A stretch of DNA of 28,917 nt from Chrysochromulina tobinii (Eukaryota; Haptophyta; Prymnesiales; Chrysochromulinaceae): positions 1-28,917 of the forward strand of contig JWZX01003045.1 of the NCBI GenBank assembly GCA_001275005.1. The letters are read 5' to 3'. Under the pieces are notes generated by a model. It was given only the letters and a program-made list of their open reading frames with translations. It had not been told where the DNA came from and searched no databases. This document shows, piece by piece, positions 281 to 28,917 of the stretch. The position numbers and the translations under genes are program-made. Position 1 is the first letter of the stretch; the number at the start of each line of letters is the position of its first letter.

Positions 281-1251
281 GCGGCGGCCCATGTGCCATA
301 CATGTGCCATGTGTCAACATCAACGCCGCCGCCTTCCTTCTGGGCCGTTTGGGCAGGTGAAGCACGTTTCATGTCTGGGGGCGGTATTGCTGGTTCGCAG
401 GCGCAGATCCGCATGGCTGGGGGCGGGAACGGGGAAGGGTCTTATTGCATATTGGGTCAACATGCAGGCGAAGAGGTGCCATATCATATATTACGGCATT
501 ACAATGTGTCCGTCGAGTTGTGGCCCCACATGTTTGCATTCGTAGGACCGGACGGGTGCACGCAGCCGTAAGAAGTTATGACCAAATTCCACCGTTCCGG
601 TCATGGTTGCCCTCACCGAACCGCTCACACCTGGGGCTCTGAGGCCTCTGACTCCCACAACGAGTGGGTTTATCGTTGAGGAGGGTCTCGTGGTTCTCGT
701 AAGGCGAGGTATGGGTACTGTTGGAACCACAGACGACCAAAGCCAAGATGACCGGCGCGACACACAGTAGTCTGTGACGTGCGCGAAACAGCAACCACGA
801 CACACCGCACAAAAGACCGACGGGCGGCGCCTTGGATCTCGGTTACATACTGTCAAAGACGCTCAAAATACGTACAGGTTTCATCCGTCCTCTCCCTTAG
901 CATGAGTGGCGACCCACACGCCCAGGGGGAATCTCCCCCGGTATCCTCTCCCCTCGCAGGAGCTCTTGGCTCCCAACTCTCTGCGGACCGTCTCGCATAC
1001 GAAGCTCAAGTTTTCCTGTTTAGGACCGAACTTGGTTTGACAAAAATTGACAAAATAAATCCGCCTCGGTGCACAAAAACAGTCTGTGTGGTCCTAGTGA
1101 GCACACTACTTTACGTAGTTGTCTTCATAATTAGATGTTTATAATTAGTATTGAGGATTTTACATCCAGGACGTATACCGGTACCTCTTCTAATTAGTTC
1201 GCGTCACTTCTCACAAGACGAAGGAAGGGGAGATCGACGCGCAGGGGAATC
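281..1251. other. Intergenic region, no gene seen
   Basis: About 970 bases lie between the partial gene and the membrane-protein gene. Open frames here are short, overlap on both strands and have no recognisable domain. A small repeat of catgtgccat occurs near 290-312. The stretch from about 1030 to 1200 is clearly more AT-rich than its surroundings and lies just upstream of the ATG at 1252, so it probably contains the promoter and 5' leader of that gene. No specific site can be named. Confidence 0.5.
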
Positions 1252-3492
1252 ATGGCGGAGAAAGTTGCGCGCGCGGAGGTCCTGGTCGGCGTTTACGACA
1301 AGGCTAAAGCACCGGGACAAGGGTTCCTATCCAGACTGCTCCGTCACCGACTCGCCCTTGGTGCGCTACCTCAGAATGTGGTTCCTCTTCCAAAGGAAGA
1401 GAAGATGCTCGGCGCGGAGGGGTCGGAGGCCGAGGTGTTCAGCGTCCGTTTCGTAGCCTGGCGCAAACTCAACATGCGCTTGGCAAGTGTGGCGATTTTC
1501 CTTCGGCTGATCCTCTCGCTGTGGATTCTCATAGAGTCATCCAACCAAAAGATTGCACTGAACGGCCGGCGTGATTGCAAGGAGCAAATTATCTGGTACG
1601 GATGCGAGTGCGGCATCTATGGCGATGATCCCAATGATCCCGGCGCCGATGAGTGCCTCCTCGGACCAGCCACACCGTCGCGATGCGCCCAGGACGGTGA
1701 TGGCAACGTTATCTGGGATGGCCCAGCTGCACGTCTGCCCTCTGGGCTGTCGCAGCAGGAGCTCGACATTATTGTCAAAGCCGGCGGATACTGTCAGAAG
1801 GAGTACGGCGTGAGAGCTTCTACCAATTTCCCGTTGATTCCGGATCACATTCGGTCGGCCACCGAAATGTATACTTGGATGGGCATTGGCAAGGGCATCG
1901 TCAAGTTCATCTGCCAGTGCCTCGCGCTGTTTTGCCTCATCGCCGCTGGCTCCAGATGGTACAAGTACGACGAGACGCGTCGCTTGCTGCAATACTCCTT
2001 CAGCCTTCTTATCGTGCCTCCCTTCCTCATGGGCATCTGCGTGCCCATGCGTGCGGGCGTCGACATGAAAAGATTGCAGAACGCCTTATGCCTGGACGTT
2101 GTGGAGAAGCTCACCGACGTGAGCGGCAACTGGGTCCTGGGCATGGATCTTGGCGACAAGCATACGTTCTGTGAGCTCGAGCCTGATGAGTGGGGCGAGG
2201 CGATCCAGGACGCCATCGTAAAGTCCGGGCTAAGCGCAGAGTACAATGAGACCCTTCTTGCGGTCACATGCCAAAAGGCGCAGGTCAGAAAGACGGGCTG
2301 CAAGACCGAGTGCGCGAGCTGCTTCGGCGACGTCCATCGGCAGGTGCGCAACAGCACGGGTGCGAACCAGACGATCAGTGTCCGCAACCCTTGCCTGGAC
2401 TACCTCACCTTCGACCAGCTTTGCAGAGGCCGCGATGCGGTGTACGAGGCGGAGTTTAGGGCGTACTCCTACGGCGATTCCTCAGATGCCACAGTCACCG
2501 ATGCGGCTCAGTCCTACACGGGTGGCTACAACGACCCGACCTCGCTCTGCAGTCTCATCGCGACCCGATTTTCGAACTGCTCGGCGCAGTGCGATCGTGT
2601 CTACCCCACCGGCCCCGGCTTTAATGGAGAAGAGTCCTGCGCTCAGGCTTGCGAGAGCGTCTTCAAGACCGAGTTGCTCGGCAACGCTCTCGCCGACGCC
2701 GACTTCGCCCCGAATCTGTGCGCCGGCGACGCCCTGTACAAGAGCCTGGGCTCGGTGACCGGGATTGCGAGCTCGTTGTTCGATGCCGTCGAAGTCGGCG
2801 TTGGTGTGGCGGTCGGCGCGCAAACGGTGGCGCTGCTGTTGCCGACTTTCCTATCGATCGTCAAGGGTCTGCTGAAGGGCGCCGAAGTCCTCAACGAGTC
2901 GCTCCCCTGGGTGCGCTTTCCCGCCTTTCAGATGGTGATCTCGAACTCGCTCATCGCGGCCCTGGTCGCCGCGATCATGTCGAGCTTCTTCCAGATGGGT
3001 GGTGACGGCTTGTCCGCATGCGCCTGCGTCGCTCTGGTGATGAGCTTTGCGTATGCATGGCCGACTCCCTACTTCCTCTCGGCCCGGTCGTTTCTCCAAA
3101 CCAAGAAAATGATGTTCAGGCGGAAGCTCTACAAGACGTCCATGCAGGTGCTGTGTGTAGCCCTCTTCCTCGCCTGGATCCTGCGGTCGGAGTTCGTCCA
3201 AAAGATGATCGAGGAGAGCGGGTTCATGCTGATTGACAAGATCGTAACGAACCCTGAAATGCTCTACGATAACATCAAAGCTCCGCTGTGGGTGTTCGTG
3301 GGCGCTGTCCTCGACTTCTTGGGCGCAAGTGTGGTGGCGAAGCTGTTCTATTGCGACTTGCTCCTCGACATTGTGATCCAGACGGAGCTGCAGGACGTGA
3401 CGCCGCAGCAGGATGTGATGCGCGGAGAGGTCGAGCGCCTGAAGAAGGTCCAGATTCCGCTGGTCGAGCTGCCGGAGACGTCGAGCGCCTGA
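1252..3492 (+). CDS. Polytopic membrane protein with a Cys-rich loop, family not recognised
   Basis: The product is 746 aa, starting at ATG 1252. Hydrophobic segments are visible at about residues 78-96, 213-234, 247-266, 505-535, 560-580, 586-604, 632-648 and 678-702, giving roughly eight membrane spans. Between spans 3 and 4 lies a large loop (about 270-500) rich in Cys (for example KTGCKTECASC, SNCSAQCDRV, ESCAQACES) with four N-glycosylation sequons (NET, NST, NQT, NCS near 332, 368, 372 and 442). A second Cys cluster (CKEQIIWYGCECG, with further Cys) sits at about 109-145. This suggests a disulphide-bonded, glycosylated lumenal or extracellular domain. I do not recognise the family, and transporter, channel or receptor are all possible. 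The last 20 codons are odd: a 50-bp tandem duplication (3423-3522) shifts the frame, so the protein ends PETSSA and the second copy, ending ELPGGQIV, is out of frame. The gene is intronless as read. Confidence 0.85.
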   Translation: MAEKVARAEVLVGVYDKAKAPGQGFLSRLLRHRLALGALPQNVVPLPKEEKMLGAEGSEAEVFSVRFVAWRKLNMRLASVAIFLRLILSLWILIESSNQKIALNGRRDCKEQIIWYGCECGIYGDDPNDPGADECLLGPATPSRCAQDGDGNVIWDGPAARLPSGLSQQELDIIVKAGGYCQKEYGVRASTNFPLIPDHIRSATEMYTWMGIGKGIVKFICQCLALFCLIAAGSRWYKYDETRRLLQYSFSLLIVPPFLMGICVPMRAGVDMKRLQNALCLDVVEKLTDVSGNWVLGMDLGDKHTFCELEPDEWGEAIQDAIVKSGLSAEYNETLLAVTCQKAQVRKTGCKTECASCFGDVHRQVRNSTGANQTISVRNPCLDYLTFDQLCRGRDAVYEAEFRAYSYGDSSDATVTDAAQSYTGGYNDPTSLCSLIATRFSNCSAQCDRVYPTGPGFNGEESCAQACESVFKTELLGNALADADFAPNLCAGDALYKSLGSVTGIASSLFDAVEVGVGVAVGAQTVALLLPTFLSIVKGLLKGAEVLNESLPWVRFPAFQMVISNSLIAALVAAIMSSFFQMGGDGLSACACVALVMSFAYAWPTPYFLSARSFLQTKKMMFRRKLYKTSMQVLCVALFLAWILRSEFVQKMIEESGFMLIDKIVTNPEMLYDNIKAPLWVFVGAVLDFLGASVVAKLFYCDLLLDIVIQTELQDVTPQQDVMRGEVERLKKVQIPLVELPETSSA

Positions 3493-3522
3493 AGAAGGTC
3501 GAAATTCCACTGGTCGAGCTGC
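3423..3522 (+). repeat. 50-bp tandem duplication at the 3' end of the membrane-protein gene
   Basis: Positions 3423-3472 and 3473-3522 match at about 46 of 50 bases. Both copies encode VERLKKV(Q/E)IPLVELP, but 50 is not a multiple of three. The first copy is in the main frame and runs into an early TGA at 3490-3492. The second copy lies in another frame, ending at a TGA at 3540-3542 after PGGQIV. The upstream junction reads GAGAG|GTCGAG, an AGGT. The equivalent position in the second copy is GAGAC|GTCGAG, so no AG acceptor is present. Confidence 0.9.
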
Positions 3523-3542
3523 CTGGGGGACAAATCGTCTGA

Positions 3543-4114
3543 ACGTACGTGCGCTGTGCACACGTGCACTCGCAGCATGGGATGCATTCGAAGCAGCAGC
3601 ACTCACCACAGCCTGTGGCTGTCAACGTCAATGAAGTTGTCAACTTCATATGCACGGTGATCTGCAGAAGTCTGCAGAAGTCTGTTTGGGGATCACTCCG
3701 CCGTTTTGGGGGGGATGGGGTTCCCTGGGGAAAGCCTCATAGGCATCCTATAGGCATCCTGTGGGAACACGGAATGAGTTTGTATGCTGCCGCTCACGGT
3801 ATGGGCACCACAGGCGAAACTAAAATAACGCGGTGATTTGATGTGCACAGTCCAGAAGTACATTAGAGAGATGAATGAATGATGTTCCTCGACGCTCGCG
3901 CTATGTCCCCGACCCACCCACCGCGATACCGATTTGAGCTTGCGTGGTCTAACTTAGCAGGGACCGGGATGTCGCGCTCCCAGGCTCGACCCAGCCTGTT
4001 CACACTCGACCCAGACTGTTCACACTCGACCCAGTCTGTTCACACATCCTGTGTTGTTGTCACAAGTACTCTCTCGCCTGGAGGCCACGTGAGGGCCGGG
4101 AACGCCACCGGGCA
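3543..4114. other. Intergenic region with small repeats, no gene seen
   Basis: This 570-base gap between two plus-strand genes has no convincing coding frame. It contains small direct repeats: tctgcagaag twice near 3661-3680, ataggcatcct twice near 3740-3760, and the 20-bp triplet at 3985-4045 listed separately. It should hold the 3' end of the membrane-protein transcript and the promoter and leader of the glucuronokinase fusion gene. Confidence 0.5.
3985..4045 (+). repeat. 20-bp tandem repeat, three copies
   Basis: The unit ctcgacccagcctgttcaca starts at 3985, 4005 and 4025. The copies differ only at one position (cagc, caga, cagt). The array ends about 70 bases before the ATG of the glucuronokinase fusion gene, so it lies in the promoter or 5' leader. 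Function is unknown. It could be a set of protein-binding sites or simply a minisatellite. Confidence 0.9.
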
Positions 4115-6131
4115 ATGGCGGTCAACCAGCTCAAGAATGCGTCACCGAGTAAACATCCGCCGATGGTATGCCTCCTCTTCGTCGCAGGTCACAACGACGT
4201 GCTCTTGCGGGAGATCGAGGCCGACTCGAGTGGTCGGTTTGAGCACCTCCGTGGTGTGCCCAAGGCGCTGTTGCCAGTGTCAGACAGCAGCGACGATACA
4301 ATCCTTGGCACGTGGTGGCGCGAGGTGAAATCGCGCCAGCTCTTCACCGAGTGCTTTCTTGTTGTGAACGCGCACCAATTCAAGTACTTTGAGCGTTGGG
4401 CCACCGCTAATGGCTTCCCTGCGGAAAACATCATCAACGACGGCACCACGACGCACGAGGGCCGGCTCGGCGCCGCGGCAGACCTCGACCTCGTGAAGCG
4501 GCGTAAGGGTCTTGAGGGCGCCGACGCGATGATTATCGCAGGCGACATGCTCTTCTCGCAGGGCTTCGACATCTCGGGCGTGCAGCGCTTCTTCCGGCTG
4601 CGTGGCGGCGATGTGGCCGTCTACTACGAATTGGCAGCCGAGGAGAACGCGGAGACGCGCGGCATCGTCGAGGTGGACCCGATGAGCGCGCGTGTGACGG
4701 CCTTCCACGAGAAGCCGCACCCGGACACACTCACCTCGCGCTTCGCATCCGTCGTCTTCTACGCCGTTCGCTCCTCCACCCTCGAGTTGCTACCGGCCTT
4801 CCTCGAGGAGGAGCCCGAGACGGCGCGCCGCACGTTCGGCCGGTTCTTCGCGTGGCTTGTGCGCCGCGACGTCGAGCTCTTCGGCATGAAGCTGCCCGCC
4901 GCCTTCGACCTGATCGGTCAGACCACCCTCGCTGAGTACCAGGCCTGCGCGAGCCGCACGCCGCCCGGCACGCTGGCCGACGAGAGTGCGCCGGTACCGA
5001 TCACACGGAGGGCGTACGCGCGTGTCGGTCTGATCGGTAACCCGTCAGACGGCTTCTTTGGCAAGACGATCGCGGTCTCTGTTGAGAACTTCTGGGCCGA
5101 GGTCTCCATCGTCGCATCTGCACGTCTCCGGCTCGTGCCACACCCTCTGAACGATCCTAATGAATTTGGGAGCCTCGCAGATCTCCATGGAATCTCGCGC
5201 AAGGAGGGGTACCAGGGCGGCCTGATCCTGCTGCAGGCGACGTGCAAGCGCTTTTACGAGCACTGCAGCCAGGCGGGCATCGCGATCGCCAAGCGTAACT
5301 TCACTCTCCGCTACACGACCAACGTCCCGCGGCAGGTGGGCCTTACGGGCTGATGCTTATGACTGATGACTTGACGACTGATCACTGATCACTGATCACT
5401 GATCACTGATCACTGATCACTGATCACTTAACGTCCCGCGGCAGGTGGGCCTTGCAGGCTCTTCAGCGATCATCACAGCCACGCTGCAGTGCCTGATGGC
5501 CTTCTACTCATTGACCGAGGCCGACATCCCCAAGCCTCTGCAGCCCTCGTTCGTGCTCTCGGTCGAGATGGACGAGCTCTTCATCCAGGCCGGCCTGCAA
5601 GACCGCGTCATCCAGTGCTATGAGGGGTGCATGTTCATGAACTTTGAGCGTTCACTCGTCGAAGGGCGCGGCTACGGCGAGTACGAGCGGCTGCCCGTCG
5701 CGAACCTGCCCTACCTATGGCTCGCCTACTTGTCGGACCCGTCTAATTCCGGCAAGATCCATTCGAACGTCAAGGCGCGCTGGCTCGCGGGCGACCCAGT
5801 CATCCATGAGGGCATGAAGCGATTCGCCCAACTGACCGATGAAGGACGCACCGCGCTCCTCGACAAGGATTGGCCCACCCTCGGCCGCCTCATGAATGCG
5901 AACTTTGCCCTGCGTCGGCAGCTCTACGGCGACGATTGCATCGGCCAGGCCGCCCTCGCGATGATAGCCGTCGCGCAGGAGGCAGGTGTGCCTGTCAAGT
6001 TCCCCGGCAGCGGCGGCGCCGTCGTCGGCATGTGCGAGAGCGATGCGCAGCGACAGCACGTGCGCGAGCTCTACGAGTCACGTGGCTACGTGTTCGCGGC
6101 GCTCGTGCCACACGAGCCGTCGCAGCCGTGA
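4115..6131 (+). CDS. Nucleotidyltransferase-glucuronokinase fusion (two exons, 4115-5335 and 5445-6131)
   Basis: Joining the exons gives 635 aa. Residues ~18-270 resemble sugar-1-phosphate nucleotidyltransferases: LRGVPKALLPV (45-55) is the substrate-proximal loop, IIAGDMLF (140-147) fits the metal-binding region, and FHEKP (197-201) is also typical. Residues ~300-635 are a GHMP kinase closest to plant glucuronokinase (YARVGLIGNPSDGFFGKTIA, then PRQVGLAGSSAIITA as the ATP-binding loop). Glucuronokinase phosphorylates D-glucuronate to its 1-phosphate. In plants a separate pyrophosphorylase makes UDP-glucuronate from it. Here both steps could sit in one cytosolic protein, which I infer from the fusion. 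The ATG at 4115 is the first in frame. The intron at 5336-5444 falls exactly inside the ATP-binding loop. Unspliced message would stop at 5351-5353 and give a nucleotidyltransferase-only protein of 412 aa. Another GHMP sugar kinase, such as an L-fucose- or L-arabinose-type enzyme, is the alternative. Confidence 0.88.
5336..5444 (+). other. Phase-0 GT-AG intron built on an exon duplication (109 nt)
   Basis: The intron starts GTGGGCCTTA and ends CGGCAG. The 24 bases around the upstream boundary (5321-5344, aacgtcccgc/ggcaggtgggcctt) recur exactly at 5430-5453 around the downstream boundary, and 28 of 30 match if extended. Both boundaries therefore read CGGCAG|GTGGGCCTT. Removal joins PRQ to VGLAGSSA in frame and restores the GHMP ATP-binding motif, which strongly supports splicing. 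The interior is a run of the heptamer tgatcac (about 5377-5428). Confidence 0.92.
5366..5429 (+). repeat. tgatcac heptamer array inside the intron
   Basis: The core of the intron at 5336-5444 is a near-perfect run of tgatcac units, preceded by the degenerate actgatgacttgacgac. Each unit contains CTGAT, which resembles a yUnAy branch-site consensus, and supplies stop codons. The array is confined to the intron. Confidence 0.85.
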
Positions 6132-19672: not shown

Positions 19673-21653
19673 ATGAACCCGGGCGGTCTTACTTGTACTT
19701 GTAGTCCGGAACCATGTGACGTCAAGAGCAATCCCATGAGCCCTTCTCTCGATGAGCACCTCGCCACCTTCTACGCGGTGGCCTCTCGTGCAGGCGCGTA
19801 CGAGGCGCAGGCGGATGCCGGCGACGCGGTTCATCTGGCTCTCGAGGCGCTCGCGGCGAGCGACGCGCCACGCGCAATCGAGGCTCTCAAGGCTCTTGTG
19901 CTGGAGCTCGATCGGCTGCTCATCAACATCTCGTGCCGCATCAACATCCGCAAGCCTGAGACCTTACGCCCGCTGCGGACGCGCTTGAGTGGTTTGCGCA
20001 GGCGCGTCACGCTTACGCTCAAAGCGCATGGCATCTCCAGCAACCGCGCCAAATCGACCTCGCCACGGCGGATCGCCAGTTGCGGAGCACTGTGCCCACG
20101 GCTTGACGAGATCGGGCCGCGTCATCTCTGCGTGTTTGGATGCTTCTTTCGAGAGTACGAACCGTCACGCATGCTGCGCGCCTTTCTTTCGGCCGCAAGC
20201 GACGCAGGCCATTGCCGCGTGCAGCTTGCGGGATGGCGGGTTGAGGTGCGCCGAACGGCAACCGAGGACAAGAATGACGAAACGGCCCGCAAGCGCCGAC
20301 GAGAGGAGCGGCCCGCGGAGGACGAGCCATGGCTGGTCGACCCTGCTGGTGGCGTCCACCGTACGATCAAGGACGCCCTCGCAGCCCTGGACGCCGATGC
20401 GCCCAGGGGTGTCGAGGCACGTGGAGCGGTGGTGGATACTCGGGCGCGCGCCGTGGTGAGCACTTGCATGCGAGCTCTGGGCGCCGATGTGCCCAGGGGT
20501 GTCGAGGCACGTGGAGCGGTCGTGAGCCGCTTCTTCGGAAACGCCCGTCACGGCGCCCAGGGTCCTTCCACGGCCGCGTGTGGAGCTGCAAGCACCGCTC
20601 CGGCTGCGGCTGCGACGAACGCTGGCTGTGTGAACGCTGGCTGTGTGAACGCAGGCTGTGTGAACGCTGGCTGTGTGAGCGCCCTCAGCGGCAACAGCAG
20701 CAGCGTCAGTGGTGGCAGTGGCAGCAGCAGCAGTAGCAGCACGGCGAGCATCGTGGCGAGCAGCAGCGGCAGCGGCATCGACAGCGGCAGTGCCGCCGAG
20801 GCGCTGTCATGGGCGCCGTGGCGCCCGCCGCACTCGCCGTACGGCCTGCTCGAGGAGCATGCAAGTGATCACCACGGCGCGCACCCGTGGCGCCCGCCGC
20901 ACTCGCCGTACGGCCTGCTCGAGGAGCTGTTGTGGGATCGTCCGTGGCGGCTGCTGCTGTGCTGCATCCTCCTCAACCAAACTTCCCGCGCGCAGGTGGA
21001 CCCCGTACTCGCTGATTGCTATTGATTGCCCTTTGATTGCCCTTTGATTGCCCTTTGATTGCCATTGATTGCCATTGATTGCCATTGATTGCCATTGATT
21101 GCCATTGATTGCCATTGGGTTGCCATTGCGCTCCGGTGGGCAGGTGGACCCCGTGCTCGCGCAGCTCTTCGAAGCTTTTCCGGACGCCGTCGCCCTCTCG
21201 AGAGCCGATCGCGCCGAGGTGGAGATGCACATCCGACCGTTAGATGACCTCTAATGACCTCTGATTGCCTCCCTCATCAGGTGGAGATGCTCATCCGACC
21301 GTTAGATGACCTCTAATGACCTCTGATTGCCTCCCTCATCAGGTGGAGATGCTCATCCGACCGTTAGATGACCTCTAATGACCTCTGATTGCCTCCCTCA
21401 TCAGGTGGAGATGCTCATCCGACCGTTAGGGCTCCATCGGCGGCGTGCACGCACGCTGATCGACTTCTCGGTGGCCTTCCTCAAGGGCGCGTGGCGACGG
21501 CCCGAGGAGCTTCCGGGGATTGGGCAGTACGGGGCGGATGCGTTCGCCATCTTCTGCGAAGGTCGCTGGCGGTTGACGGTGCCGCACGATCACGCGCTGC
21601 TCTGGTATACCGAGTGGCTGCAGATTGTTGACAAGGGAGAAGGATCAGGATGA
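19673..21653 (+). CDS. MBD4-like mismatch-specific DNA glycosylase (three exons)
   Basis: Exons 19673-20995, 21144-21218 and 21405-21653 join in phase 0 to 548 aa. ATG 19736 is a possible alternative start. Residues ~405-540 match the HhH-GPD glycosylase domain of MBD4: HSPYGLLEELLWDRPWRLLLCCILLNQTS, then LIRPLGLHRRRARTLIDFS, the helix-hairpin-helix LPGIGQYGADAFAIFC (502-517) and VPHDHAL with the likely catalytic Asp528. MBD4 removes T or U opposite G, mostly at deaminated CpG, in nuclear base-excision repair. I see no methyl-CpG-binding domain, as in plant MBD4-like proteins. The N-terminal ~400 residues are low complexity: a basic patch (RKRRREERPAEDE), two near-identical GVEARGAVV blocks, four NAGCV repeats and a Ser/Gly run. 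The segment PWRPPHSPYGLLEE is duplicated in frame. It is unclear whether the N-terminal part is functional. Confidence 0.85.
20387..20524 (+). repeat. 48-bp direct repeat with a 42-bp spacer, in frame
   Basis: Copies at 20387-20434 and 20477-20524 differ at only four bases or so and encode LDADAPRGVEARGAVV and LGADVPRGVEARGAVV. The period is 90 bp, so the reading frame is kept. The spacer 20435-20476 contains a 30-bp core (20442-20471) that is the inverted complement, 28 of 30, of 20857-20886. Confidence 0.9.
20618..20680 (+). repeat. 15-bp coding tandem repeat, four copies (NAGCV)
   Basis: The unit aacgctggctgtgtg is repeated four times with one variant copy (aacgcaggctgtgtg) and encodes four NAGCV pentapeptides. 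A Ser/Gly-rich stretch made of agc/ggc codons follows. This is slippage-prone low-complexity coding DNA in the N-terminal part of the glycosylase. Confidence 0.85.
20816..20926 (+). repeat. 42-bp direct repeat with a 27-bp spacer, in frame
   Basis: Copies at 20816-20857 and 20885-20926 are identical and encode PWRPPHSPYGLLEE twice. The period is 69 bp, so the frame is kept. Only the second copy joins the glycosylase domain as in known MBD4 proteins; the first is an extra insert. The spacer (20858-20884) is the inverted partner of the core at 20442-20471. Confidence 0.92.
20996..21143 (+). other. Phase-0 GT-AG intron with bordering exon duplication (148 nt)
   Basis: The intron starts GTGGACCCCGTA and ends GGTGGGCAG. 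The boundary sequence gcaggtggaccccgtactcgc (20992-21012, first 20 bases plus one) recurs at 21140-21160 with one difference. Splicing gives SRAQ|VDPVLAQLFEAFP, which matches the MBD4 domain. The interior (about 21014-21125) is a run of tgattgccctt and tgattgccat units of 11-12 bp. Confidence 0.9.
21014..21126 (+). repeat. Tandem repeat of tgattgcc units inside the intron
   Basis: About nine to ten units of 10-12 bp are present: early ones read tgattgccctt, later ones tgattgccat. The array is confined to the intron at 20996-21143. Each unit contains yTGAT, which resembles a branch-site core. Confidence 0.9.
21219..21404 (+). other. Phase-0 intron made of three 62-bp GT...AG units (186 nt)
   Basis: Units at 21219-21280, 21281-21342 and 21343-21404 each begin GTGGAGATG and end CCTCATCAG. 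They are identical except for one base in the first unit (gcacatcc versus gctcatcc). Exon 3 starts with the same 25 bases (gtggagatgctcatccgacc and ttag), so it looks like the head of a fourth unit. Removing all three joins RAE|VEMLIRPLGL in frame. Each unit carries an in-frame TAA, so partial removal would truncate the protein. Confidence 0.92.
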
Positions 21654-23387: not shown

Positions 23388-26300
23388 TCATAGACCCATC
23401 TTCTTAGTCAGCCATGCTCGCTTGGCCTCCTGCCTTGTCCGAAACGCCTCAGCCCCAGGAGCACCCACGCGCATCTCGACGCCCTCGGCCTCCCTCTCCC
23501 AGACTTGACGAGTTCTCAACGCGCGCCTCTCCGCGGCTGAATTGCTTGTGGTCGGCTGAGGGAAGAGAGGCTGCGTCCCAGGCAGCGGCTGTTGCTGAGC
23601 GAGCAACGCCGCCCTAGCAGCCACGCCAACGTCGGGGGGCGGGCGATCCATCATCTCCCTGCGCATCTGGGCTCGCTCGAAGGCCGAATAAATCTTGGGC
23701 ATGGTGCCTGGTGGTGTCGTTGTCGTCTGTGCGACCGAGGGACCAGTGGGTGCCACGACACCCCGCGTGGCGCGTGTCTTCGCGCCACCTTCAGCCTGCG
23801 AGCGACGAGCGGCGGCCTCTGCCCGAGCTTTCATCACCTCGACGCTCGCGTCTGCTCGCGGTTCCGCCCGGTACGCGGGCACAGCCGCCGGTGCCGGCGG
23901 TGGCGTCACGAGTGGTCGCAGGGTCGGCCGCGGGGGTTCCGCAGCCACCACTCGCGGTACCACCCGGTACGCGGGCACAGCCGGCGGTGTTGGCAGTGAC
24001 GTCACCTGTTGCCGACCAGCGTCCGCGCCCGCCGCAGGGGGCGTGAGGCTCGCCCGCGCAGCTCTCCGCTCGTCTTTTTTGCGAAGCAGCTCTTCCCTCC
24101 GGGCGCCCCAGCCTGAGCTCTGAGCTCTCAGCGGAGGTGCGACAAGGTTCATAGGCGGCTCGAGCCACTCTTCCTGCGGCAGCGCGGCGTACTCTATCTC
24201 CGGCGATGGCAGCGGTGGTGGCGATGGCGGCAGCAGCGCGCTATCTTGGTTCCCATCGCTCTCGGGCTCCGCAGATAGATCTGATGCCTTGGGCCCCCAG
24301 GTGGTCATTGCTTGCGCGGTACCCCACCCCTCCTCAAGCTTTGCGAGCCATGCCGCCTTTGCCGCTGCCTCGTTGACCATCGCCGCCGGCGCAGCAGCCA
24401 AGGGCTGCAACGGAGACGCCTGGGGCGCTGTGATGGGCGCTGGCCTAGGCGGCGGAATGGCTGCCGGCATGTTGGGTGAGACGGCTACGGGCATGCTTGG
24501 CGGCATGGGCGCTGGAAGAGGGAAGGGCGCAGCAACTGGTCTCGGTGGCGATGGAGAGGGGAATGGAGTGTCGCCATCAGGAAACACGCTGTTCGTTTTC
24601 ACGACGCGTCCCGTGTTCAGCTTGTCGAGGGTCTTGAGAGCCGCCTCCTTCGCAATGTCCTTGAGACCCGCTTTTGCCCGCGCGAGCTCCAATGCAGCCT
24701 GCTCTTCGGCTGCACGCCGGGCGAGCCACTGTGCTTGAGCCTCCGCTTCAGCCACGCGCTCTGCGAGCTCTTTCGCTTCGGCCTCCGCCTTGGATTCCGC
24801 CTCGGTCTTCGGCTTCGGCATCATCGAGGGTTTCATCAGCGACATTGTACTCGTCAGCGGTGATGGCTTGCGGTATTCTAGCCAGCCGAGGGGATCCTCT
24901 GCCAGGTTTCTCAGGCCCTCGAAGAAGATGGTCGGCGCGTCGCGCTTTGCCGCCGGTGAGAGTCCTGACGGCGAAGGCCCCTCATCTATGCGGCGTAGGC
25001 CCGGCTTCGGCGGGCGCACCTCCTCGCCCACCACTGAGGTCAGCCCAAGCTCCCTGGCCAAGTTGCTGAGGCTCTCCATGACGATGGTGGTCAAGTCGCG
25101 CTTCTCTGCTTCGTCAAGCTTGTTCATGCGACGCGGGCCCGACGACTGCTCTCCCTTCGAAGGTGGTGCCGCCGCGCCGTTCTCCTCCTCCTCATCGTCT
25201 TTGCTGCGAAATGGCGTGCTGTCCATCGGAAACCCCGTGCTGACGAGGGTGCCAACAAAAGCCGCGGCCACGACCGCGACCGCAATCTTGGGGTCGTTGA
25301 GATCGAACGAAGGCCATGAAGGAGCGCCCGCAAGGATTCCCACAGCTGAACTGGCTCCGACGCCCATGGCGGCGCCCAAGCCCGGTGCCGCGATCTTCTC
25401 GGTCACCGCCATCGCAGCTGCTTGCGCCTTGGCTAAGACGCGTTCCGCCGCGCTCTCAGCCTTAGCCGCCTCCTGAGCAAGCGCTCTTGCCTCGCGTTCA
25501 TTCGCTGCTGCCTGTGCGGCTTTCGCCCAGGCGGTCTCCTCAGCTGCGGCCGCTACCCTGGCCTCCTCCGCCCTCGCATTGACCTCTCTTTGCGCTTCAG
25601 CCGTGGCGGTGGCCTTTGCCTCAGCTTCCGCTTGGGCAAACGCCTTTTCTGCCGCCACCGCCTCGGCTTCCGCCTTGACTAGCTCGGCTGCCGCTGCTGC
25701 CCTTGCCTGCTCTGCCGCCACCGCTTCAGCCTCGGCCTTGGCGTGGGCATCCTGTGCAAGGGCCTCCACCTCCGCTGCCTGGGCCGCCAGCCGCTCGGCA
25801 GCCATGCGCTCCGCCTCCGCTCTCTCCATGGCCGCGGCGCGCTCAAGCTCGGCTTGCTCCGCTGCGACGCGCTCCGCCTCCGCCTTCTCCATGGCATTGA
25901 TGCGCTCGACCTCGGCCCGTTCCACTGCGACGCGCTCCGCCTCGGTTGCTTCGGCTGCGGCACGTTCTGATTCGGCCTTCTGGGCTGCAACACGCTCCGC
26001 CTCAGCCCTCTGAGCTGTAATGCGCTGAGCCTCGGCCTTTGCTGCCGCCAGTCGCTGCGCGTCCACGGCCGCCCTTGCCTCCACCTCCACCTGTGCCGAG
26101 GGTGCAATCGCCTGCGCCTGTGCCTGCACCGGCATCACCAATGCTGTGGCGGTGTTTGCGGCAAGCACTGGCTCTGACTCCGCGGCGGTCTCCGCAATCG
26201 TCTGGGTCAGTTTGATTGGGTCCGGCAAGAAGGCCAACCGATTCGTGACGTCGTTGCCAATCACATTGACCGCCAAGATGCCAGCCGCAGCGGTGCCCAG

Positions 26301-26765
26301 CACGATGGCGATGTTCCGGCGGCGAACGATCGCCTTTTCGAGGGCTTCCTCAGCGTCGAACAGGCCTTCAAGGACGCCTGGCGTTGCCTCGCCAACGACC
26401 ATATTATCCACAACTTTCTCGAGCTGCTCGCGTTCCCTCGCGAGCTTCTGGCTCATAGCGAGAGACCGACCAGCAGTGAGGAGCGCGACAGTCCCAAGGA
26501 ATGCCTGAGCAGGAAGGGCGACGTTGGGCATTTGTGCCTGCTGTTGTTTTCTCGCCTCTGCCTTCTTCTGTGCCTGCTCTAGCTCTCTGACCAACGTCTC
26601 GACGTCCCCAAGAAGTGTCTCGGTCAACTTGTTTGCCGCCCCGAGGTTGTCGGGCGCGTTGATGGCTGCATATGAGATCCGCGAGGCAGCACTCGCGCGT
26701 GTCTGGCCAATGAAGCTTGTCATCGACGAGTAGCCTGCGACTGCTAGCACCACGCACGTCAGCAT
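23388..26765 (-). CDS. Large membrane/coiled-coil protein with signal peptide, paralogue of the next gene
   Basis: The product is 1125 aa, read from ATG 26765; the frame opens four codons earlier at a GTG. Residues 1-20 are a signal-like segment, followed by Ala/Ser/Arg (QTRASAASRISYAA), which suggests plastid or secretory entry. A coiled coil at ~45-77 precedes a hydrophobic helix (83-104), then AMSQKLAREREQLEKV, then a second hydrophobic helix (150-172). This core recurs in the neighbour at 27132-28781. Residues ~225-450 are an extreme Ala/Glu/Arg/Lys helix built on repeats of the type AEAERVAAQ, which could form a long single helix or coiled coil. A third hydrophobic segment follows at ~490-510. 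Two related short motifs (LTTIVMESLSNLARE and APTIFFEGLRNLAED) come next, then a Pro-rich region and a basic tail ending AWLTKKMGL. No known family is recognised. A structural or tethering role in a plastid membrane is speculation. Confidence 0.8.
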   Translation of the reverse strand: MLTCVVLAVAGYSSMTSFIGQTRASAASRISYAAINAPDNLGAANKLTETLLGDVETLVRELEQAQKKAEARKQQQAQMPNVALPAQAFLGTVALLTAGRSLAMSQKLAREREQLEKVVDNMVVGEATPGVLEGLFDAEEALEKAIVRRRNIAIVLGTAAAGILAVNVIGNDVTNRLAFLPDPIKLTQTIAETAAESEPVLAANTATALVMPVQAQAQAIAPSAQVEVEARAAVDAQRLAAAKAEAQRITAQRAEAERVAAQKAESERAAAEATEAERVAVERAEVERINAMEKAEAERVAAEQAELERAAAMERAEAERMAAERLAAQAAEVEALAQDAHAKAEAEAVAAEQARAAAAAELVKAEAEAVAAEKAFAQAEAEAKATATAEAQREVNARAEEARVAAAAEETAWAKAAQAAANEREARALAQEAAKAESAAERVLAKAQAAAMAVTEKIAAPGLGAAMGVGASSAVGILAGAPSWPSFDLNDPKIAVAVVAAAFVGTLVSTGFPMDSTPFRSKDDEEEENGAAAPPSKGEQSSGPRRMNKLDEAEKRDLTTIVMESLSNLARELGLTSVVGEEVRPPKPGLRRIDEGPSPSGLSPAAKRDAPTIFFEGLRNLAEDPLGWLEYRKPSPLTSTMSLMKPSMMPKPKTEAESKAEAEAKELAERVAEAEAQAQWLARRAAEEQAALELARAKAGLKDIAKEAALKTLDKLNTGRVVKTNSVFPDGDTPFPSPSPPRPVAAPFPLPAPMPPSMPVAVSPNMPAAIPPPRPAPITAPQASPLQPLAAAPAAMVNEAAAKAAWLAKLEEGWGTAQAMTTWGPKASDLSAEPESDGNQDSALLPPSPPPLPSPEIEYAALPQEEWLEPPMNLVAPPLRAQSSGWGARREELLRKKDERRAARASLTPPAAGADAGRQQVTSLPTPPAVPAYRVVPRVVAAEPPRPTLRPLVTPPPAPAAVPAYRAEPRADASVEVMKARAEAAARRSQAEGGAKTRATRGVVAPTGPSVAQTTTTPPGTMPKIYSAFERAQMRREMMDRPPPDVGVAARAALLAQQQPLPGTQPLFPQPTTSNSAAERRALRTRQVWEREAEGVEMRVGAPGAEAFRTRQEAKRAWLTKKMGL

Positions 26766-27131
26766 CTCAGGCGCCACACGTCTGAGCGGCGGGGCCGCGT
26801 GCGGAGCCGGAACGGAGGCGAGCCTCTCTCTCGGAGAATGCGCTTCGAGGTTCTCTGATTTTCATCGAAGAACCTGGAACTCGAGCTCGGGCGGAGGTCG
26901 GCTTCGTTAAAGTGATGACTCGTATTTTGCTTCGGGGGTCTGCGACCAGCATCTGTCTCCTTTTAGGCCAAAATCTGAATCCTTTTCGGCCACCGCTCAC
27001 TCTGTTGAGTTCAGGCATGCAGCCGCGTTATCCGTACACCGCGTTACCGCGTTAAGAAGCATCCTACACTGTACTGCGAACCTACGTATTGCGCTGTGTG
27101 CGAACCTACTGGGACGTAGATGTGCTCGAGC
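26766..27131. other. Intergenic region between the two paralogues, no gene seen
   Basis: This 366-base gap holds the promoter of the large gene and the 3' end of the smaller paralogue, both on the minus strand. A short direct repeat, gcgaacctac, occurs near 27076 and 27099. Frames here are short and without domains. Confidence 0.45.
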
Positions 27132-28781
27132 CTACTGCGGTCTGTGCGATCGGGGATCGGCCTCCTCGGGAGTGAGCATAGCCGAGGAAAAGAGAGCCTC
27201 AACGGATCGGTCGAGCGGCTTCGCCGCACCTCCGAGCCACAACGAGTTTTGAAGCGAGTTCGAAGCATCCTCTGAGCGGCCAACTCGATGACTCTCGGGC
27301 TTGATCTCGTCGGGCAGAAAGTAGGGCACGAAGCTGAGCACGAACAGAGTTCGTGCAATACGTTCAAGCCAGAGCCGCCGACTCCATATCGAGGAAGGCG
27401 CATCTGTATCTCGATCTGCATCTCGATCTGCCGGCTCCGCCTCATGTGGCTTAGAGTGCAGCGTAGGATCATTGGCGTCCACCTTCGCCGGAGATGCGCC
27501 CGGCTTCCTTGCCGCTGCCTGCCCCTCCACCCTCTTCGTCGAGTTGGCGTCCCTCTCTGGAATGTCTTCCCCTGTGTCACCCATCGCGCGCTTGAGGGCC
27601 TGCCAAGCACGCTGCACCCCGGCCTTGGCCTCCGACAGCTCCGGCCAATCGGCGAGAGTCTTCGGGCCAGTCGTGGGGTTGGGATCGACGTCCTTCTCGC
27701 GGGCCCTCGTGGTCTCGATGGCTCGCAGATTACGCTTCGCCCTCGCTATCGCGTCCCCGGAGTTGAGATCAAGACGCAGCGCCTTGGCGATCGTCTCGAG
27801 ATCCGTGCGGTTCGTCCCTGCGGAGCTGGAGCCGTCCGCGCCGTCCTCGCCCCTCCCGAAGAGCCAATAGAGCCAAGGTGTCACAGCCACGGTGCCAAGA
27901 TACGCCACGAAGAAGGCGGCGCTCCTCCTCCTGCTCTCATCGAGCTCGGACAGCCTCTCGAAGAAGAGTGCGAGCGCCTCTCGCTCTGCATAGGGGCGGT
28001 CAGCTGCGGCAGTCTCCCTCGTCATTCGCTCCACTCTCAGGCGGACTTGCTCCACCTCGGCAGCGAGTTGCCTCGAGGCCTCTGCCCGCGCCGTCACGAC
28101 TGGCTCGGACGTCGGACGAGCTGCCAGAGCATGCTCCATTGTCAATCGCTCCGCCTCTGGACGGGCCACTGCCTGCGCCTCGACTTGGACCGCCTCCTCT
28201 GCATTCACCTGCACTGGCACTCGCGCAAGACCCGACGAAGTGATGGCTGACGAGCGCGGCGCGGCTTCTCGAGAGTCCAACCAGCCGTTGGGCCAGCCAG
28301 CGATGCTGGCCGCGCTTGCCGCAAAGCCAACGGCCGCAAAACCCAGAACGATGCCGAGCCTTCGGCGGCTGTTGATGGCCTTGGTCAGTTCAATGTCCAT
28401 CGCCTCAAAGCCAGGTGCCGGAGTGGTCTCCGCCAGCTGGTTCTCGAGCACCTGGAGCTGATCACGCTCCCTCGTGAGTTTCTGGCTCATTGCGAACGAT
28501 CGAGCAGCAGCGACGGCCGACAGACTGCTGAGGGCGACAGGAAGAGCAACCTCGAAACCTGTGGCCTGCGACTCCACCATCTCTTGTTCATCTAATAAGG
28601 CCGTCAGCCGCCGAACCTTCTGTAGTAGCTCCTTAACGTTTTCATCAGCGGCAGCGAGATCTTCGGGCGTTGCAAGGATCACGGGTGAGGCCCTCGAAGC
28701 GGCATACGCACGCCCTACTTCGAAGGCATGCAGCATTGGCGCGGAGAAGCCGGAGGCGAGCAACAATAAGGTCGTCCACAT
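27132..28781 (-). CDS. Membrane/coiled-coil protein with signal peptide, smaller paralogue
   Basis: The product is 549 aa, read from ATG 28781; the frame opens 15 codons earlier at a GTG. Residues 1-20 are a clear signal peptide (MWTTLLLLASGFSAPMLHAF), followed by EVGRAYAASRASPVI. A coiled coil at ~45-70 leads into a hydrophobic helix (78-95), then AARSFAMSQKLTRERDQLQ, then KAINSRRRLGIVLGFAAVGFAASAAS with the second hydrophobic helix (143-162). The neighbour has AGRSLAMSQKLAREREQLE and KAIVRRRNIAIVLGTAAAGILA in the same order and spacing, so they are tandem paralogues. The long Ala/Glu array is much shorter here. A further hydrophobic segment lies at ~300-318 (AAFFVAYLGTVAVTPWLYWLF). A final one lies near RIARTLFVLSFVPYFLP. 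Family and function are unknown. Confidence 0.8.
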   Translation of the reverse strand: MWTTLLLLASGFSAPMLHAFEVGRAYAASRASPVILATPEDLAAADENVKELLQKVRRLTALLDEQEMVESQATGFEVALPVALSSLSAVAAARSFAMSQKLTRERDQLQVLENQLAETTPAPGFEAMDIELTKAINSRRRLGIVLGFAAVGFAASAASIAGWPNGWLDSREAAPRSSAITSSGLARVPVQVNAEEAVQVEAQAVARPEAERLTMEHALAARPTSEPVVTARAEASRQLAAEVEQVRLRVERMTRETAAADRPYAEREALALFFERLSELDESRRRSAAFFVAYLGTVAVTPWLYWLFGRGEDGADGSSSAGTNRTDLETIAKALRLDLNSGDAIARAKRNLRAIETTRAREKDVDPNPTTGPKTLADWPELSEAKAGVQRAWQALKRAMGDTGEDIPERDANSTKRVEGQAAARKPGASPAKVDANDPTLHSKPHEAEPADRDADRDTDAPSSIWSRRLWLERIARTLFVLSFVPYFLPDEIKPESHRVGRSEDASNSLQNSLWLGGAAKPLDRSVEALFSSAMLTPEEADPRSHRPQ

Positions 28782-28917
28782 TGTTTTGTCTTCTCGGTGT
28801 CGATGCTGCCTGGGTTTCACTCGCACACATTGTCAGAGTCAGAATCACTATCCTAATCAGATATGTATTCGTCAGAACCCGATCACCCCGTCGCGCCTCG
28901 CGCCTCCGCCCGCCGTC
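28782..28917. promoter_or_regulatory. 5' flank of the smaller paralogue
   Basis: The last 136 bases lie upstream of the minus-strand start codon at 28781 and probably hold its leader and part of its promoter. A locally AT-richer stretch (about 28840-28870) is present. The extreme right end is C/G-rich and may already belong to another gene outside the window. Confidence 0.35.

Follow-up and report, generated by a model that had tools for sequence, protein, structure and literature searches.

The second intron of an MBD4-like gene in the haptophyte Chrysochromulina tobinii is predicted to consist of three nearly identical 62-bp units, each joining a 25-bp copy of the start of the following exon to a 37-bp insert that has relatives throughout the genome. 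The gene lies on a stretch of 28,917 nucleotides (contig JWZX01003045.1, assembly GCA_001275005.1), here called the window, and the analysis is computational throughout. We consider it probable, at about 0.7, that this intron is a recently gained, introner-like insertion that arose together with a long target duplication, of a kind whose length varies among loci, and that it subsequently gained units by exchange between its own repeats.

The 62-bp period was recovered by Tandem Repeats Finder at 21217-21429 (3.4 copies, 99% matches, score 419), and comparison of the three head-to-tail units, of which units 1 and 2 differ at one of 62 positions and units 2 and 3 at none, leaves a single mismatch in total, so that the array noticed in a preliminary description of this DNA is real. 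All three units begin with GTGGAGATG and end in CATCAG, and they are, as had been proposed, formal GT...AG modules. The statement that exon 3 opens with the same 25 bases is exact for units 2 and 3 and fails by one base for unit 1, which has A at 21229 where the other units and the exon have T (21291, 21353 and 21415). This base lies in a Leu codon, where the homologues inspected by eye in the alignment have a hydrophobic residue (L, I, V or M), and since T is shared by the exon and units 2 and 3 at such a codon, the A of unit 1 is probably the derived base. The 37-bp remainder of each unit, ATGACCTCTAATGACCTCTGATTGCCTCCCTCATCAG, contains TAAT and TGAT motifs resembling branch points, a pyrimidine stretch and the terminal CATCAG. 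An Rfam scan of the window at the gathering threshold returned no matches.

That this region behaves as an intron is supported by the coding sequence around it. The three predicted exons join in one frame, the C-terminal part of the product is an MBD4-type glycosylase domain (Pfam HhH-GPD, 1.2e-11), and a phmmer comparison of the spliced product with the PDB matched 1ngn (MBD4) over 136 residues, gap-free across both junctions, with an E value of 1.9e-36. Retention of one, two or three units introduces stops in each case, one or two units shift the frame, and all three together restore it downstream with the stops still present; the gene would thus need every unit removed, as had been argued. 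The in-frame TAA ascribed to each unit is found only in unit 1 (TAA TGA), since 62 mod 3 = 2 places units 2 and 3 in other frames, where they meet other stops.

Homologous proteins (P-numbers) date the intron. Of the 32 found, 19 were aligned and 13 left out of the alignment; 18 of those aligned, P0001 and P0004 (88% identity) among them, cover the intron-2 site from both flanks and have no insertion there. Together with the single mismatch in the array, this agrees with the young age proposed earlier, and a recent, lineage-specific gain, tested for this single site, would be the simplest explanation. In P0001, P0004 and P0013 the first residue corresponds exactly to the opening codon of exon 2, and because of this start P0001 and P0004 appear to be translated from genomic DNA with a non-coding stretch upstream, which suggests an intron at the place of intron 1 and none at that of intron 2. 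P0007, from other contigs, is 98% identical over 56% of the query, with one residue unlike the window's, and since its N-terminus, MTSDCLPHQ, is what the end of the last unit would encode, a near-identical strain would seem to carry at least that part of the array.

The insert is not confined to this gene. The genome searched comprises 53.15 Mb in 2253 contigs (C-numbers; the window is contig 1886), and a 229-kb sample of it, made up of the window and the first 10 kb of 20 randomly drawn contigs, has a GC content of 63.3%; the published Chrysochromulina tobin genome is given as 59 Mb in 3,472 contigs with 63.4% GC and a single intron per gene on average (PMC4580454; here and below, papers are cited for the portions of them consulted). 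At up to 3 mismatches ATGACCTCTAATGACCTCTGATTGCCTCCCTCATCAG occurs at 189 genomic places, the window's three included, and at 36 of 37 positions at 24 others, while the reversed control gave 0. Its 19-bp end, TGATTGCCTCCCTCATCAG, has 879 exact occurrences (reversed control, 0), with GT directly following in 590. Many near-identical copies at different positions, the mark of introners, are thus present both for the insert core and for its end. In IMG/VR, where records near this genome may be absent, a scan with TGATTGCCTCCCTCATCAG gave 0 matches. Sister introns of the insert family are predicted in a Lon gene and at other loci, and removing predicted introns leaves an open frame in the MBD4-like, Lon and NTP_transferase-containing genes, with homology spanning the junctions in the first two, as judged from sequence.

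Many of the sister sites likewise have a copy of the sequence that follows them. Fetched loci (L-numbers) L041-L080, 40 places among the TGATTGCCTCCCTCATCAG matches listed, gave 42 scorable motif instances, of which 29 have GT next and 25 an upstream copy of the following sequence at a score of at least 8. As a null, each site was paired with the downstream sequence of another site, which guards against the looser border repeats described for 213 of 213 introns examined (direct repeats of 4-30 bp near the borders, mean 11.4 bp, similarity 71-100%; PMC11782384). The 99th percentile of this null was exceeded at 15 of the 29 GT sites and 5 of the 13 non-GT sites, and in the 229-kb sample at 11 of 21 and 7 of 7, respectively, figures that include array-mates, which inflate the null too. 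Among 22 instances at the 20 loci nearest to the window insert, 14 have a copy at a score of at least 9, and the next bases are GT (13), GC (6), TT (2) and AT (1). When all fetched loci, random and picked, were pooled, 93 of 99 motif clusters were scorable (63 single-unit, 30 multi-unit), and a copy at a score of at least 12 was found in 30 of the single-unit and 20 of the multi-unit clusters. An unanchored search found a direct repeat scoring at least 14 in 68 of the 93, including 39 of the 63 single-unit clusters; in 25 of these 39 the right copy begins within 3 bases of the end of CATCAG, most commonly one base before that boundary, with a shared G (14).

At the 30 duplicated single-unit loci the duplication measures 12-62 bp (median 27), the two longest, at L050 and L079, being complex and possibly inflated; the insert measures 12-112 bp (median 53.5), and the spacing, equal to intron length if so spliced, 67-145 nt (median 80). 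A G precedes the predicted intron in 26 of the 30, and the first two bases are GT in 19, GC in 3 and others in 8. Because 22 of the 30 copies begin with GT or GC, the target copy would supply the 5' splice site at most of these loci, and selection for a working donor is visible in the sequences. At L034, L079 and L031, arrays or duplications whose unit start is not GT, splicing may use sites within the duplicated stretch, or else the insert may stay unspliced. An unusual cluster was seen at L015 (C386:1-10000), with four single-unit predicted introns that have copies of the exon start, from 911 to 5682.

A general AG/GT bias among direct repeats (the slash marks the boundary) was set aside as support, being weak, with coding repeats dominating the counts. 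AGGT ranked 82nd of 256 four-base words at all direct repeats, and in an anchored test an upstream copy was found for 47 of 1438 AG/GT, 15 of 1576 AC/GT, 15 of 1413 GA/GT, 17 of 1234 CA/GT, 26 of 1451 TG/GT, 30 of 2078 CC/GT, 44 of 1384 GG/GT, 160 of 2827 AG/GC, 131 of 2572 AG/CT and 76 of 1666 AG/GG sites. A direct-repeat census of the 229-kb sample yields no clean rate, since plain coding repeats make up many of its 42 events and both exon-1 events described below escaped it.

Arrays of comparable units do exist elsewhere in the genome, as a check suggested with the preliminary description was meant to find out: at L004 five units of 54 bp stand with a longer one, and the units measure 58-84 bp at L002, 66 at L005, 73 and 63 at L019, 77-78 at L089, with GC donors, and 60 at L034, not GT-initial. 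The array of L002 has six units and a start that does not match its following exon, so that whole-unit copying at this locus need not begin from an exon copy. In a post hoc comparison, 12 hand-picked arrays have a median unit of 70.5 against 80 for the 30 single-unit introns (one-sided p = 0.008, or 0.017 without the window), a hint at most; short inserts may need multimerisation to become spliceable. Recursive splicing uses AG/GT ratchet points, or zero-length exons, in long introns. The unit junctions here, CATCAG/GTGGAG, are likewise zero-length-exon sites, which differ in arising by duplication within a 186-nt intron.

The MBD4-like gene holds four insertion-plus-duplication events, two of which could be spliced out as introns, the other two preserving the frame. 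The duplication copies around intron 1 are spaced 148 bp apart with AG/GT on both sides, and the spacings of the two exon-1 events, 90 and 69, are stop-free multiples of three; both of these insertions appear to be kept in the protein. They carry, in opposite orientations, a second dispersed motif, TGCAAGTGCTCACCACGGCGC, with 2,078 matches at up to 2 mismatches genome-wide and 0 for the reversed control. The 229-kb sample has six hits of this motif at up to 3 mismatches, the window's two included, and direct repeats of 15-52 bp enclose five of the six, in both orientations.

Other fillers stand between target copies as well. At L015:6705-6811 (C386), CCCTAA repeats stand between 25-bp target copies, and removal of 82 nt as a predicted GC-AG intron gives one open frame; two unspliced frames are also open, so that the call depends on which frame is judged likelier downstream and not on stops in every frame. 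L013:5774-5881 (C297) has a telomere-like insert between 30-bp copies with AG/GT, the 78 nt being in frame and either coding or an intron. CCCTAA is likely the true telomere repeat, because it stands at the starts of contigs C103, C992, C1485 and C1490; it also occurs inside contigs. Telomeric filler favours capture during repair over a dedicated transposon. At L037, part of a Lon protease gene, a single frame results when two predicted introns, of 70 and 200 nt, are taken out; its product aligns with Lon structures over 92 residues (E 1.3e-31 for the best), the one single-residue gap of that alignment lying off the splice junctions. The insert of the 70-nt intron consists of CCGATTAC followed by TCTGATGATGACC...CATCAG, and the 200-nt intron, farther 3', ends in the same string; there the 8 nt of CCGATTAC are part of a copy of that site's own exon. 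Because the insert includes these 8 nt, the end of one intron plus a scrap of exon appears to have been copied to another site, stopping exactly at the 3' splice site, a single case whose direction depends on the 8-base match.

Table 1. Predicted features of the MBD4-like gene and of one further intron in the window
Feature	Positions	Strand	Remarks
Intron (predicted) in NTP_transferase-domain gene, filler (ACTGATC)n	5336..5444	+	31-bp duplication 5321-5351 / 5430-5460, 94%, AG/GT inside
Exon 1 of MBD4-like gene, start codon uncertain	19673..20995	+	
In-frame event: 52-bp duplication (92%) around 38-bp insert, spacing 90	20383..20524	+	second motif, reverse orientation, insert 20435-20472
In-frame event: 43-bp duplication (100%) around 26-bp insert, spacing 69	20816..20927	+	second motif, insert 20859-20884
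Intron 1, 148 nt (predicted), TGATTGCC-repeat filler	20996..21143	+	flanks: 29-bp duplication 20984-21012 / 21132-21160, 86%, containing AG/GT
Exon 2, 75 nt	21144..21218	+	
Intron 2, 186 nt, three 62-bp units	21219..21404	+	predicted; removal gives gap-free MBD4 alignment
Unit 1: 25-bp exon-3-start copy (one mismatch, A at 21229) + 37-bp insert	21219..21280	+	
Unit 2	21281..21342	+	
Unit 3, identical to unit 2, ends in 3' splice site CATCAG (predicted)	21343..21404	+	
37-bp insert core, third copy	21368..21404	+	other copies 21244-21280, 21306-21342
Original target copy = exon 3 first 25 bp, repeated at each unit start	21405..21429	+	
Exon 3 through stop codon (21651-21653)	21405..21653	+	

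The gene with the predicted 5336-5444 intron has an NTP_transferase domain in its first part, and its second part is presumably kinase-like. Two adjacent open reading frames on the minus strand of the window (23388-26777 and 27132-28826) have N-terminal parts that look similar by eye and are possible paralogues. Outside the window, at about 6500-9200 of L021 (C353), there are tandem repeats with units of about 125-135 and 265 bp that have diverged from one another.

Put together, the anatomy of the array and of its sister loci suggests three steps. A 37-bp intron 3'-end module of the dispersed kind would have been inserted at a staggered cut in an exon, and the 25-bp overhang would have been filled in on both sides of it; the left copy, GTGGAG..., would then have become the 5' splice site and the 5' part of the intron, the right copy would have remained exon, and the insert would have supplied the 3' splice site. 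Unequal exchange or replication slippage between the direct repeats, in which a copy-insert-copy arrangement would gain or lose exactly one copy-plus-insert unit per event, could have added the whole 62-bp unit (25 + 37) twice, and as every gain joins AG to GT, the array would have stayed removable. The spliceosome would remove the 186 nt at once or unit by unit, with the same mRNA as the outcome. More generally, the simplest common cause of the events described here would be that short, often repetitive DNA is inserted at staggered breaks whose long overhangs are filled in, those insertions surviving within genes that can be spliced or stay in frame.

Introners are reported from 5.2% of the genomes surveyed, a Chrysochromulina sp. 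metagenome-assembled genome (MAG) included (PMC9860276). Like them, the predicted introns described here are dispersed and near-identical, and an element with the 3' splice site whose 5' site comes from the target duplication is depicted there too (legend of Figure 2B). Some characterised families of the DNA-transposon type make 3-9-bp duplications, and the family of the Chrysochromulina sp. MAG makes one of 4 bp and carries the 5' splice site (PMC9860276), whereas here the element would carry the 3' splice site, and the variable duplications of 12-62 bp around a dispersed insert would be a departure from that pattern. The introners of Amoebophrya (PMC7789003) similarly have repeats overlapping exon/intron borders, although these are 3-5-nt direct and 8-20-nt inverted repeats, in non-canonical and part of the canonical introns. 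Gains by tandem duplication and by break repair have been reviewed (PMC3443670), and the latter share with our cases an insert flanked by direct repeats that gap filling produces, which are short there and longer here, where in addition one insert family with a constant 3' end recurs hundreds of times. Insertions of telomeric repeats at primate and rodent breaks, with target duplication in 6 of the rodent cases tabulated (130) and in 4 of the primate ones (25; PMC2246262), resemble the two telomere-like inserts at L013 and L015 in placing repeat DNA at a break, sometimes with a target duplication; the difference is that one case here is predicted to splice as an intron. Our search covered a library of open-access papers, as distinct from subscription papers and preprints, and in it we met no description of a dispersed insert within long variable duplications, or of multimeric or telomere-seeded introns of comparable kind.

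One alternative, which we hold to be unlikely, is a local tandem duplication across the 3' junction of an existing intron, as in the potato RdRp gene (PMC4974935), where the anatomy is the same: an exon copy gives the new donor, and a duplicated AG/GT gives both sites, as it would in intron 1 and in the intron at 5336-5444. This would account for L008, L061 and L037, where the new unit is preceded by an older intron that ends similarly. In the window, however, unit 1 directly follows coding exon 2, with no copy of an older intron there, and a 37-bp insert lies between the copies, where a plain duplication should have nothing foreign; its near-identical copies on other contigs are unexplained by a purely local event. 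Furthermore, inserts separate the copies in general (median 53.5 bp, 12-112), one insert family is common to several genes, and the other three duplications in the MBD4-like gene enclose different fillers, the second motif in two and the TGATTGCC repeat in intron 1.

There is a small chance, in our estimate, that a small intron first arose complete and was then repeated head to tail, for example by reverse splicing at AG/GT or by exchange between 5' and 3' junctions, which comes near to the serial duplication of a new intron proposed in the preliminary description. The GT...AG form of the units and the arrays elsewhere speak for it, and the six units of L002 show whole-unit copying without an exon copy. 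Reverse splicing is expected to leave the exon unduplicated, and against such copying the first 25 bp of the unit are those of the exon, far beyond junction microhomology, and an exon copy also starts 30 of the 63 single-unit sisters. Serial duplication would thus stand as regards the units, and the starting object appears to have been not a complete intron, as had been supposed, but a 25-bp exon copy plus a dispersed 37-bp insert; since insertion explains the unit borders at AG/GT, a special intron-duplication step is unneeded.

The chance seems slighter again for an ordinary introner of the DNA-transposon type, built on miniature inverted-repeat transposable elements (MITEs), for which the dispersal of the insert and the introners of the Chrysochromulina sp. 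MAG (PMC9860276) could be cited; the duplications at 30 loci are variable and not of a fixed few bp, the 5' end of the insert varies, and inspection by eye noticed no inverted terminal repeats in the 37 bp. That the array is no intron at all, but a minisatellite within an exon of a broken gene, or else an artefact of assembly, is very improbable in spite of the window's richness in minisatellites, given that its exact removal restores a conserved domain gap-free, that the last unit's end is present in P0007, a distinct protein on other contigs, and that sister arrays exist.

Several observations nevertheless weigh against a gain of intron 2 by insertion with a long target duplication, or against its extension to the whole family. 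Homologues of the P0001 type are predicted open reading frames on short contigs, and some may be cDNA. No upstream copy at a score of at least 8 was found for 17 of the 42 listed instances, nor a duplication at a score of at least 12 for 33 of the 63 single-unit clusters, which would be older or otherwise made; the 8 of 30 copies that begin with neither GT nor GC imply a donor elsewhere or the extension of an older intron. L008, L061 and the 3' intron of Lon stand next to older introns and fit plain local duplication, and across 44 sites the far end of the duplication shows no clear cut-site motif.

As for the delivery of the insert, reverse transcription would suit the constant 3' end, the variable 5' end and the variable duplication, the first being partly under splicing selection and found at sites that were anchored on the 3' motif. 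Four of 26 RVT_1 matches were examined over 5.0, 4.0, 2.4 and 1.7 kb downstream, where the frames are open throughout and the element ends were not reached, and near the examined matches only two sense motifs were seen, 4.8-4.9 kb downstream, in L081. We lean towards repair capture over reverse transcription, without claiming it.

A wider reading, to be held only tentatively and judged as a whole somewhat less probable than even, is that these loci are the output of a genome-wide intron factory of an undescribed kind, in which the repair of staggered breaks would build repeat DNA in between two long filled-in target copies. The filler would be copied from the 3' ends of introns already present, from other short repeats or from telomeric ones; copies with GT or AG/GT would become introns at once, and others would survive only in frame; and through their own direct repeats the new introns would gain and lose whole units, in the extreme to the point of precise loss. 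Excised introns may be reverse-transcribed in the copying, and the constant CATCAG end would then be accounted for. The origin of new introns is an old question that has stayed open because few introns have been caught young. Here, hundreds of related sites stand in one small genome alongside four events in one gene, and their anatomy predicts polymorphism in unit number, precise loss and dependence on break repair.

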